This document shows, piece after piece, positions 55,776-59,423 of a stretch of DNA of 64,000 bases. The position numbers and the translations under genes are program-made. The first letter of the stretch is position 1, and the number at the start of each line of letters is the position of its first letter. Source of the stretch: Nocardioides albus (lineage in GTDB: Bacteria; Actinomycetota; Actinomycetes; Propionibacteriales; Nocardioidaceae); the NCBI RefSeq assembly GCF_014648255.1, contig NZ_BMQT01000003.1, positions 124,001 through 188,000 of the forward strand. Reading direction: 5' to 3'. Below the pieces are notes generated by a model. That model did no database searches. It saw only the letters and a list, made by a program, of their open reading frames with translations, and had not been told where the DNA came from.

Positions 55776-56498
55776 CTAGGCTCCGCGGGCGAGCTCGTCG
55801 AGCAGGATGCCGGCCGACCGGTCGTTCTCTGGAAGCCCCTCGATCCAGATCCGGTCGGCGCTGTGCTCGACCATCCGCTTGAGGAGCCCGAGCCGTTTGA
55901 CCAACGTCTCGTCACGCGGTGCGACCACGACCATCCGGCTGTGACCGACCTGTCCGACTGCCGCCGCGCCGGCGAAGACCGTCCGGGCGGTCTGGCCCAG
56001 CAGAGACATCCGACGCGCGGTGGCGATGTTGTCGGCCTTCCCGCCGGGATCGCCTGGGAGGTGGGCGTCGGTGACGACCAACGCATGGCTGCAGGCCTTG
56101 GCGTCGCGGTAGAGCTCCGAGATCCGTTCACGTACGTGCGCGAGGGTGGAGAGGCCGGTGAGCGGGTCTGCGCAGGAGATGGTGTGCAGGTAGCCGAGCG
56201 TCGCCTCGCTCCAGGCGACCGAGAGCGCGTGCACCTCGGCGAAGACCGGATCGCGGCTCTCGACGGTCTGGGTCGTCGTCCGGAGATCCTCGAGGCTCTC
56301 CCCGAGCGACACCCCGGTCTCAGCGAGGTCGTGGCCTACCACCCAACAGGCCTCGGCGATGTAGCTGCTTCGTTCGGCCAGCGCTTCTGCGACAGCCTCG
56401 AACCGCGGCGGGAGCACCGCACGCTGCTGCTCGGAGAGCTCTGTGGTCTCAGGCGAGGTGGATGCACGCGCACGCCGACCCCGGGGGAACAGCCGCAC
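55776..56498 (-). CDS. Degenerate GGDEF-like domain protein
   Basis: 240 residues. The N-terminal half (about 20-105) is helical. Residues about 110-235 start with ADPLTGLSTLAHVRERISEL, the typical beginning of a GGDEF domain (DPLTGLxN), but the catalytic GG(D/E)EF signature is missing: the matching place reads VGQVGHSRMVVVAP. So it is probably a non-catalytic nucleotide- or protein-binding relative. AAGAGG supports the GTG at 56498. It is divergent from the sigma-fusion gene. Confidence 0.6.
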   Translation of the reverse strand: MRLFPRGRRARASTSPETTELSEQQRAVLPPRFEAVAEALAERSSYIAEACWVVGHDLAETGVSLGESLEDLRTTTQTVESRDPVFAEVHALSVAWSEATLGYLHTISCADPLTGLSTLAHVRERISELYRDAKACSHALVVTDAHLPGDPGGKADNIATARRMSLLGQTARTVFAGAAAVGQVGHSRMVVVAPRDETLVKRLGLLKRMVEHSADRIWIEGLPENDRSAGILLDELARGA

Positions 56499-56742
56499 AG
56501 CTCACCTCTTTTCTCGTGTTTCCTGACGTTGCTGTCGTTCCTCGTCCGATGTCGTCGGGTCATGGATACAGTGGTGCGCACGCCGGTCTCCCTCGCGCTC
56601 ACATGGACTTGACGCACGAAATCGGCAAGCATGACGCGATAGAAGCCCGCCTTTTCGGGTTTCTCGAAACTTTGTTGTCAGATCCCGGGAGGGGGCGTGA
56701 CGTGCGGGCAGCCGCTGTCGTTAGCACAACGCATGTCTCCCG

Positions 56743-59349
56743 ATGGCGCAACCCGCGTCATACCTCCGCCCCCCAAACGTCTCTGGTGCTGTGAGCGAAA
56801 CGACCCCCACCTCTCTGCCGACCCTCGACGCCCCCGGCGACGCCGAGCTGATCACCGCCGTCCGCGGCGGTGACCTGGATGCGTACGGGCTGCTGTTCGA
56901 GCGCCACGTCGAGTCCGCTCGCCGCCTCGCCCGCCAGCTGGTGTCGGCGGGCGACGTCGACGACCTCGTCTCCGAGGCGTTCGCCAAGGTGCTCAACGTG
57001 CTGCAGAGAGGCGGCGGCCCGGACCTGGCGTTCCGGGCGTACCTGCTGACGTCGCTGCGCCGGCTCCACGTCGACAAGATCCGCGCCGCCTCCAAGCTCA
57101 CCACGACCGACGATCTGACGCCGTTCGACCCGGGCGTCCCCTTCGAGGACACCGCGGTGTCGGGCTTCGACAACCAGGCGGCGGCGAAGGCGTTCCAGCA
57201 GCTCCCCGAACGCTGGCAGCAGGTGCTGTGGCACACCGAGGTCGAGGGACAGAAGCCCGCCGAGATCGCGCCCCTGCTCGGCATGTCCGCCAACTCGGTC
57301 TCCGCGCTCGCCTACCGCGCTCGCGAGGGTCTCAAGCAGGCCTTCATCTCGATGCATGCGCAGGATGCCGGCGAGGAGGCCTGCGCCACGACGCGGGCCA
57401 ACCTGGGTGCCTACATCCGCAACGGCCTGTCCAAGCGCGACTCGAAGAAGGTCGACGACCACCTCCAGGACTGCCGCCCCTGCACCGCGATCTACCTCGA
57501 GCTCACCGAGGTCAACTCCGGCATGGGCGCTTGGCTCGCACCGGCCCTGCTCGGCGCCGCAGGCGCGGGCTACCTCGCCGTCGGCGGCGGTGTCGCCGCC
57601 AAGGGCGGTGTGCTGCTCTTCTTCGGACGGGTCAGGGACTGGGCCCTCGGCGATCCTGTGGGACGTACGGTCGCTGGGGCCACCGGTGTCGCGGCCGCTG
57701 CGGCTGTGGTCGCCGGGTTCGCGCTCACCGGCGGTGACCCGTCCCCGAAGCAGCCGGCCGCGGACGAACCCGCCGCGGAGGCGCCCGCTGCTGCCGACCC
57801 GGCTCCTGCTGCACCGCCTGCGGCCGCGCCACCTGCCGCGGCACCACCGGCGGCTGCTCCTCCTCCCGCGGCCCCGCCTGCTGACCCTCCCGCGGCCCCG
57901 CCTGCCGCGCCACCGGCCGCACCTCCCGCCGACGCTCCTCCGGCACAGCCGCAGGAGGCTCCAGTGATCACCTCGCCCCTGCCGACGGTCGAGGTCCCTC
58001 CCGGCGGCAAGGCGGTCATCGATCTGACCCAGGGCGCCAGTGACGCCGATGGCGACCCGCTCTCGGTGAAGGAGGCGACCCTCGCCTCCCCGGCCCGCGG
58101 CACCGTCACCAAGGGCGGCGCCACGTCTTCCGGCGGCAAGGGCGGAGGCGTCAGCGGCGCGGTCTTCGGCGGCCTGCGGATGGCCGACGAGCCCGTCACC
58201 ACCGTGACCTACCAGGCCGCCGCTGGCTGGCGTGGGACCGAGACGATCGAGTACGTCCTCACCGACGGCAACGGCGGCGACGTCTCCGGCACCGTCGACG
58301 TGACCACCCCCAACGCTGCCCCGAAGGCCGAAGACGACGACGCCGAGGCAGAGGTCGTCGTCGGAGACGGCAACAACGGCGTTGGCCTGGGCGGTCAGAC
58401 CAGGACCGCCAAGACCACCATCGACGTGCTCGCCAACGACGCCGATGCCAACCAGGACACGCTCGAGATCGTCTCGGTCACCGATCCTGCCCACGGCACG
58501 GCCGCGGTCGTCGACGGCAAGATCGAGTACACGATGGACGAGGGCGACACCGGGACCAGCGACACGTTCAGCTATCGGATCTCGGACGGCCACGGCGGCA
58601 ACGACGACGGTGCCGTCGAGGTGACCTTCGAGGAGGCTCCGCCGGAGCACGACGCCAGCATCGCCCGGGAGCACGTGTCGAACGACGACTACGAGCACAT
58701 CGTGGTCACGGCCGACGGCATCCCCGAAGGCGACTTCACCGCGACCTTCCGATACCGGCTCACCGGCGTCGGCCAGCGCTACCCGGGGCTGTCGATGTGG
58801 GCCTGCTCGCAGCTCGGTGTCCCATCCGTACCGGTAGGCGGAGTCGTCGAGGGCGAGTGCACCCTGTCGAGCACGAACAACGGCCAGGAAGTGCTCCACT
58901 TCGACTTCGTCCCCGACGGTGACTGGTCGTTCGTGGGAACCCTGACCGCCGTGGGCTACACGGACCCCGATGGCGAGAACGACCGTGTCAGCGCCTCCGG
59001 AACCGCGCCGACTCCCACACCTACCCCGACGCCGACGCCGACGCCGACCCCGACCCCGGACGTGCCGCAGCTGCCGACGCTCACGCCGATCCCGGACGTG
59101 CCGCAGGCCCCGACGGCACCCGGGACGCCCGACCCGCCGCAGCTGCCTGTCTCGCCAAGCGACTCCCCCGACCCCGGGAAGAGCTCCAGCGCCCCCGGCA
59201 AGTCCGCCAGCAGCGCTGACCCCGGCGAGCCCAGCAGCAGCGCCAGCCCCGCCAAGACACCCGATGACGGGCCTCCTGTCGAGGAGCGCGGCGCTCGCGC
59301 CGGCGGGCTGACCTGGAAGGGCTTCCTGAAGGCGATCGGGATCGACTGA
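56743..59349 (+). CDS. ECF-like sigma factor fused to zinc finger, membrane helices and extracellular Ig-like domains
   Basis: 868 residues. Sigma region 2 (about 35-105; LVSEAFAKVLNVLQ) and region 4 (about 145-200; PAEIAPLLGMSANSVSALAY) are intact. A zinc-finger anti-sigma-like segment follows, with Cys about 211 and VDDHLQDCRPC near 238-248. There are hydrophobic helices at about 265-290 and 307-330, then an Ala/Pro linker. Two cadherin/Ig-like domains (about 407-510 and 545-630) and a further beta-rich domain (635-758) end in a Pro/Thr/Ser tail. The sigma head would be cytosolic, the rest outside. A GTG at 56791 is an alternative start. Confidence 0.85.
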   Translation: MAQPASYLRPPNVSGAVSETTPTSLPTLDAPGDAELITAVRGGDLDAYGLLFERHVESARRLARQLVSAGDVDDLVSEAFAKVLNVLQRGGGPDLAFRAYLLTSLRRLHVDKIRAASKLTTTDDLTPFDPGVPFEDTAVSGFDNQAAAKAFQQLPERWQQVLWHTEVEGQKPAEIAPLLGMSANSVSALAYRAREGLKQAFISMHAQDAGEEACATTRANLGAYIRNGLSKRDSKKVDDHLQDCRPCTAIYLELTEVNSGMGAWLAPALLGAAGAGYLAVGGGVAAKGGVLLFFGRVRDWALGDPVGRTVAGATGVAAAAAVVAGFALTGGDPSPKQPAADEPAAEAPAAADPAPAAPPAAAPPAAAPPAAAPPPAAPPADPPAAPPAAPPAAPPADAPPAQPQEAPVITSPLPTVEVPPGGKAVIDLTQGASDADGDPLSVKEATLASPARGTVTKGGATSSGGKGGGVSGAVFGGLRMADEPVTTVTYQAAAGWRGTETIEYVLTDGNGGDVSGTVDVTTPNAAPKAEDDDAEAEVVVGDGNNGVGLGGQTRTAKTTIDVLANDADANQDTLEIVSVTDPAHGTAAVVDGKIEYTMDEGDTGTSDTFSYRISDGHGGNDDGAVEVTFEEAPPEHDASIAREHVSNDDYEHIVVTADGIPEGDFTATFRYRLTGVGQRYPGLSMWACSQLGVPSVPVGGVVEGECTLSSTNNGQEVLHFDFVPDGDWSFVGTLTAVGYTDPDGENDRVSASGTAPTPTPTPTPTPTPTPTPDVPQLPTLTPIPDVPQAPTAPGTPDPPQLPVSPSDSPDPGKSSSAPGKSASSADPGEPSSSASPAKTPDDGPPVEERGARAGGLTWKGFLKAIGID
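59011..59058 (+). repeat. CCGACG-type simple repeat coding a Thr-Pro tract
   Basis: Tandem CCGACG and CCGACC units code for alternating Pro-Thr residues in the extracellular tail of the fusion protein. Such tracts can vary in length by slippage. Confidence 0.85.
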
Positions 59350-59423
59350 TCCCACATCCGCTCGACGCGCGTCCGTCGGCTCAGGCCGGTGGACGCACTG
59401 CGGTTTTCGCAGGTCGGAACCAC

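Follow-up and report, generated by a model that had tools for sequence, protein, structure and literature searches.

The locus described here raises the question how a sigma factor that shares one polypeptide with a membrane anti-sigma domain and a likely external sensor might be set free, and from which promoters it would then transcribe. It lies in a 64,000-nucleotide (nt) stretch of the Nocardioides albus genome (assembly GCF_014648255.1, contig NZ_BMQT01000003.1, positions 124,001 to 188,000), called the window below. A sequence-only reading had noticed a gene for such a chain on the plus strand and described it as a stand-alone device; its observation was confirmed in our analysis and its interpretation partly supported. 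The device does not stand alone: a conserved partner gene adjoins it, and a promoter-like element lies between the two genes. We consider it fairly probable that the two genes form a signalling module, in which a tethered, fused sigma factor is joined by a pseudo-GGDEF partner and the promoters are read by the released sigma factor. Genomes, loci and families carry our own labels (G, L and f), and the genome of the window is G000.

The fused gene and its parts are the following, with residues counted from ATG 56743:

56743..59349, plus strand: fused sigma/anti-sigma/membrane/exodomain gene in the frame first reported, 868 amino acids from ATG 56743
56791..59349, plus strand: this gene as read from GTG 56791, the preferred start, 852 amino acids; start 9 nt past the -10-like block, with equal or similar spacing in relatives
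56893..57093, plus strand: Sigma-70 region 2, residues 51-117 (Pfam PF04542)
57181..57327, plus strand: Sigma-70 region 4, residues 147-195 (Pfam PF08281, Sigma70_r4_2)
57382..57483, plus strand: zinc anti-sigma-like motif C214-x25-H240-x3-C244-x2-C247 (Pfam zf-HC2, residues 214-247)
57538..57627, plus strand: first, weaker hydrophobic stretch, residues 266-295 (hydropathy)
57667..57735, plus strand: main membrane segment, residues 309-331 (hydropathy, flanking charges)
57736..57957, plus strand: Pro/Ala-rich linker, residues 332-405 (sequence)
57958..58632, plus strand: Ig/cadherin-like exodomains, about residues 406-630 (Pfam Big_9, Cadherin_5, Cadherin_4)
59008..59055, plus strand: (PT)n stalk core, residues 756-771, inside a longer Pro/Thr/Ser-rich tail (sequence)

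The order of sigma factor, zinc finger, membrane part and exodomain in one chain, as first reported, was borne out by Pfam, by hydropathy and by relatives that carry it in frame. All Pfam calls (Sigma70_r2, Sigma70_r4_2, zf-HC2 and the Big_9/Cadherin repeats) were above cut-off, the zf-HC2 domain (pfam13490) following region 4 with 27.6 bits against a cut-off of 22.2. All 38 aligned homologue rows have H205, C214, H240, C244 and C247; the alignment leaves out L043, L059 and L063 as cut or broken. Because the zinc ligands are invariant and the N-terminal order is kept in frame across relatives of 36-96% identity, the fused architecture is not a product of chance. The motif is missing from two of 161 loci, namely L063, where the frame is broken, and L135.

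The plus-strand open frame 56743-59349 with its 868 codons exists as described; its start was probably placed too far upstream. Where the window has ATG 56743, its three nearest copies read GTG, TTG and GTG, and a promoter-like element at 56755-56781 ends 9 nt ahead of GTG 56791, for which reason this GTG is the more likely true start. Opposite the fused gene, an antisense open frame of 865 amino acids occupies 56758-59355 of the minus strand; since the domains and the conservation belong to the plus strand, we regard this frame as a high-GC shadow. At the other end of the protein, residues 856-868 (59308-59346), LTWKGFLKAIGI, recur in slightly varied copies at the ends of the three nearest homologues (L036-L038), where they come after a fast-changing Pro/Ser-rich tail. 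This stretch is possibly a small amphipathic helix.

As to topology, the hydrophobic helices of the first description reduce to one clear segment, 309-331, and the weaker stretch 266-295, which passes the hydropathy threshold in many homologues and falls below it in the window protein. Flanking charges were counted in 158 homologues, near copies included (the 161 minus L063 and L135, without the motif, and L147, without a segment). Lysine plus arginine average 2.0 before the main segment and 1.1 after it, with more before than after in 99 homologues, equal numbers in 38 and fewer in 21; aspartate plus glutamate average 0.9 before and 2.4 after. Since positive charges are richer before the segment and negative ones after it, the C-terminal part would probably lie outside the cell, in line with the extracellular Ig/cadherin-like domains suggested earlier and now assigned by Pfam to Big_9/Cadherin. 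AlphaFold2, run on the N-terminal part, gave good predictions for most helices of the sigma and zinc domains and a poor one for the membrane part. H240 is modelled within helix 231-243, and C244 and C247 at the turn into helix 245-270, so that the Hx3Cx2C signature is predicted to span helices 2 and 3, where the definition of class I zinc anti-sigma domains places it, as given in the part of PMC7406223 used here. Foldseek with the model of the sigma half returned ECF (extracytoplasmic function) sigma chains. Domain, motif and charge evidence thus supports a tethered sigma factor that would probably need proteolytic release, as had been supposed.

Two features were assigned to the partner, whose gene lies upstream on the opposite strand:

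55776..56498, minus strand: partner gene, 240 amino acids, with an N-terminal helical part and a GGDEF-fold domain without the GGDEF signature (profile, AlphaFold2, structure matches)
55782..56180, minus strand: GGDEF-fold part of the partner, residues 107-239 (AlphaFold2, VIA-align)

The AlphaFold2 model of the whole partner has a mean pLDDT (predicted local distance difference test) of 90.8. Residues 107-239 superimpose on the GGDEF domain of FimX (PDB 3hva) with a VIA-align Z of 11.5 (131 aligned residues, 3.4 Å), which ranks FimX with the best fold matches; Foldseek found GGDEF domains with a best E of 1.5e-4, and the partner sequence profile, run against the PDB, found FimX GGDEF first (E 2.4e-4). 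Searched against Pfam, the partner gave no match at E <= 0.05. By these models, the protein adopts the GGDEF fold, and it lacks the signature of a diguanylate cyclase: the active-site motif [GSA]G[DE]EF occurs in 0 of 122 partner proteins. Despite the fold of the partner, its own genome (98.4% complete) yielded no PF00990 match at E <= 0.001.

The partner is tightly linked to the fused gene. Among 394 genomes of the host's class, with the best 7 candidates per genome scored, 72 match the partner profile at E <= 1e-5. Strong matches (E <= 1e-14) number 49, none of them more than 506 bp from a fused sigma gene; 40 are divergent from that gene and nine co-directional with it, the latter all in family f23. 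The weaker matches are mostly partial and in long frames; four of 12 loci fetched around them contain a canonical GGDEF motif, and one (G203) adjoins a short fused homologue of 277 amino acids. A partner is present in 76 of 80 named loci, and of the four without it, L155 is cut by a contig end. Most of the Nocardioides loci examined have one order, with a sigR-like gene, a hydrolase gene, a SRAP gene and the 240-amino-acid partner on one strand and the fused sigma gene, aroA, rsgA and hisN on the other. Pseudonocardiaceae, Oerskovia and family f23 also keep the pair, with the aroA/sigR order either altered or not seen in the flanks covered.

Alternatively, the fused protein might be an ordinary sigma factor of ECF52/ECF53 type and the partner merely a conserved target with an effector job of its own and no feedback on the sigma factor. 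The element described below is tied to the partner, as expected of a target gene, and 94 of the 143 positive genomes have no strong partner match. A target, however, need not stay where it is, whereas 49 of 49 strong matches remain by the sigma gene despite changed surroundings and orientation, and we therefore regard this explanation as rather unlikely. We favour a partner that belongs to the module, probably as a cytoplasmic protein that most likely is no enzyme and instead regulates the sigma/anti-sigma part by feedback or serves it as an adaptor. More tentatively still, it may represent a new class of sigma regulator, a GGDEF fold outside cyclic di-GMP (c-di-GMP) chemistry that acts directly on the membrane-tethered chimera and is made from a promoter read by the released sigma factor. 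If this is true, a self-contained two-gene module would run through actinobacterial families, its intracellular transducer, partner and promoter being kept and its outside sensor freely exchanged; the GGDEF fold, with its signature lost and its gene strictly linked to that of a sigma factor, would moreover have been put to a new use.

Between the two genes of the window, the promoter-like element occurs twice:

56611..56637, minus strand: element toward the partner, GCGTCAY-N16-CGTC (motif)
56755..56781, plus strand: element toward the sigma gene, GCGTCAY-N16-CGTC, ending 9 nt before GTG 56791 (motif)

Its general form is GCGTCAY-N16-CGTY, and A/T-rich sequence precedes the first block. ATGACGC/GCGTCAT was found in 65 of 83 non-redundant divergent intergenic regions (115 before near copies were dropped), compared with 3.9 expected from first-order resampling. 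Over all 115 regions, near copies included, the spacer between GCGTCAY and CGTY is exactly 16 in 81, and any other length from 8 to 25 occurs in at most three. The element belongs to the partner, because it stays upstream of it and turns with it in seven of seven loci examined in which partner and sigma gene run in the same direction (L119-L123, as well as L163 and L165, where the partner is inverted). Applied to 20 loci outside the training list, a weight matrix scored 19 at 14.5 or above, the highest null score being 12.3. Four of these 20 are three copies and one near copy of training loci; among the 16 others the element is present in 15.

One could also read the element as an operator for another transcription factor, made of tandem repeats of GACG type at a distance of about 22 bp, and let the fused sigma factor act elsewhere. 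CGTC/GACG does occur in both blocks, which are spaced by about two helical turns, and for an ECF sigma factor the -35-like block would be an unusual one. The rigid 16-nt spacer, the A/T-rich stretch, the partner-tied strand and copies 8-10 nt before start codons fit a promoter better, and the element goes with the gene pair across differing surroundings; an operator thus seems quite improbable to us.

The copies just mentioned point toward the sigma gene. With near copies counted, 27 of 122 loci have a sigma-directed site above the 99% null. Of 17 distinct sites, 11 have an in-frame start codon 8-10 nt downstream of the second block (in L159 this is the second start; the window, L036, L037 and L038 are close kin), and in the other six the start follows at 15-59 nt. 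This short distance in 11 of 17 suggests that the mRNA of the sigma gene is leaderless.

Taken as a promoter, the element completes the following proposal. The zinc anti-sigma part would keep the sigma factor at the membrane in an inactive state, and an outside signal would bring about its release by regulated intramembrane proteolysis. The free sigma factor would transcribe the neighbouring partner gene, where present, from the GCGTCAY-N16-CGTY promoter and, in some lineages including that of the window, its own gene via a leaderless mRNA. Alternatively, the sigma factor might work while anchored, or be freed by a conformational change instead of proteolysis. Cleavage is only inferred here, and conformational changes were also proposed for ECF52 proteins, as stated in excerpts of PMC5826349. 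On the other side, the fused sigma factor IutY is activated by the proteases Prc and RseP, according to the section on it in PMC8999054, and M50 site-2-protease matches are present at two places of the window's own genome. We judge anchored or conformational activation to be unlikely and retain release by proteolysis as the working model.

Computation establishes the domain order, the fold of the partner and its lost signature, the linkage, and an element of fixed spacing whose orientation goes with the partner; reading of the element by this sigma factor, proteolytic release and the place and role of the partner are proposals built on it. A number of points weigh against the module. Usual -35 elements of ECF promoters are of the 'AAC' type, unlike the GCGTCA block. 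Not all loci have a strict site ahead of the partner (89 of 122 do), and G142, the one held-out locus that the matrix missed, has the gene pair and no element. A strong partner match is present in 49 of the 143 genomes positive for the fused sigma gene, many fused genes have no partner, and none adjoins SCO4117-like genes (see below). The partner profile itself derives from neighbours of fused sigma genes and was applied to the best few candidates per genome, so that remote partners elsewhere may be missed. L135 (G195) is a long open frame of 980 amino acids without the C-x25-H-x3-C-x2-C motif. The AlphaFold2 sigma half has a pTM (predicted template modelling score) of 0.43, a low whole-model confidence, because of which the packing of the sigma against the anti-sigma part is not readable from the model. 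Finally, the pattern has six exact sites in the window's own genome, two of them at this locus, and a control with an N18 spacer also has six; no larger regulon beyond the two promoters was established.

In ten genomes together, 64 exact sites were counted compared with 44 for the shifted-spacer control. A shifted spacer was chosen because the reversed pattern differs in CpG make-up and is a poor genome-wide control. We inspected those of the 64 sites that fall in 42 fetched loci. A STAS-domain gene near G000:C3:118439 was dropped as a target: it has an exact site in G000, G015, G011 and G001, yet the site is not conserved, since in 18 further loci of the Nocardioides group the best scores were 7.4 (G003, which has a window-type gene) and 6.0 (G021, which has none), all others being 1.6 or lower. 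Likewise, mscL is a weak lead only. At a score threshold of 6.4, sites occur in four of the 18 genomes that carry a window-type gene and in none of the 12 that do not, some of which have more distant fused homologues. The mscL site of G000 and G027 falls within the 3' end of the upstream reading frame, and its conservation may therefore reflect coding constraint. In G015, G011 and G001 (L282, L293, L294), an ABC-transporter ATPase gene is preceded at 126-142 nt by an element of the same type.

A search for homologues with the same domain order, which the sequence-only reading had suggested, found the architecture in 143 of the 394 genomes at E <= 1e-20, with the best 5 candidates per genome scored. 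To judge from predicted domains, the exodomain is exchangeable between homologues: a window-type exodomain is present in only six of 158 others. Among 20 chosen homologues, Pfam found NPCBM in four and ricin-B lectin in five, three of the latter with Ig domains too; in the remainder the C-terminal match is to DUF642, DUF11 or Big_9, or no match there passes the cut-off. In a quick, unrooted tree of the sigma and zinc part (85 chosen rows, some long branches meeting elsewhere), the window protein falls into a clade of 27 rows (branch label 97), 24 of which have the partner gene. The NPCBM-bearing rows fall into a separate clade (branch labels 96 and 97), and these homologues, L113-L116, have no partner gene adjoining. 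For 38 homologues without a partner, an unfiltered profile search of the upstream frames found none (best E 0.2), three of these loci (L043, L047, L155) being cut by contig ends.

Some homologues deserve mention on their own. The window's genome encodes a second fused sigma factor (L075, G000:C12:123562-124425), which is about 37-38% identical and has no GGDEF-like partner adjoining. L147, L149 and G203:C1:1160242-1160940 are short proteins of about 275-310 amino acids with sigma factor and zinc motif, in which the membrane segment is absent or marginal. Two orthologues look broken or mis-sequenced: L063 (G023) is split over two frames, and G056:C1:8189952-8190917 has two stops. The record of L185 is labelled Streptomyces sp. 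SID13031 and is probably misnamed; the tree places it with Kribbella, and its locus is similar.

Among known systems, two bear on the partner. FimX of Pseudomonas aeruginosa is itself a degenerate GGDEF protein. Unlike FimX, the partner has only 240 amino acids, which leaves no room for an EAL domain, has an N-terminal helical part of its own and adjoins a sigma gene. In Streptomyces, RsiG is a c-di-GMP-binding anti-sigma factor of WhiG, and RsiG-WhiG entries of the PDB turned up among our structure matches. The locus resembles this pair in that a sigma factor is tied to machinery of c-di-GMP type in actinobacteria; unlike RsiG, the partner has the GGDEF fold, and its own genome has no PF00990 match. 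A link between fused sigma factors of this kind and a GGDEF-like partner was not found in the literature searched, and its novelty is claimed within that literature only.

For the fused protein, the suspicion that its architecture might be uncharacterised was in the main wrong. In the portion of PMC8999054 that deals with them, the groups ECF48, ECF52 and ECF53 are described as a sigma factor followed by a zinc anti-sigma domain, one or two membrane helices and an extension; for ECF48 and ECF53, the common layout with the window protein follows from this description and not from a comparison with reference proteins. SCO4117 of Streptomyces coelicolor (ECF52) was knocked out and truncated experimentally; in the excerpts of the 2018 paper used here (PMC5826349), it is presented as the first ECF52 member characterised, its promoter signature being left open, and autoregulation and release by a protease are proposed. 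The window protein shares with SCO4117 the ECF regions 2 and 4, the zinc finger (zf-HC2 in SCO4117), the transmembrane region and the proline-rich extension. In contrast, SCO4117 ends in an extracellular carbohydrate-binding module, whereas Pfam finds only Big_9/Cadherin in the C-terminal part of the window protein. The NPCBM-bearing homologues, which from their domains we infer to be Streptomyces orthologues of SCO4117, do not group with the window protein in the tree, and the motif published for SCO4117, CSGYN-17 bp-SRHA (same excerpts), differs from the element found here. IutY of Pseudomonas putida (ECF243) is likewise a sigma factor fused to a membrane anti-sigma part and activated by proteolysis; it belongs to iron-starvation cell-surface signalling, and the account of it in PMC8999054, as far as used here, mentions neither a zinc motif nor a GGDEF-like partner.

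Fused sigma/anti-sigma/sensor proteins are thus widespread in the host's class yet little studied, and a dedicated partner and a rigidly spaced element offer a binding partner and a reporter as handles on release and sensing. Compared with the fused sigma factors described so far, the architecture itself is known; what is particular in the window protein is its Ig/cadherin-like exodomain, and what is new at its locus, within the literature searched, is the dedicated pseudo-GGDEF partner together with the promoter-like element.

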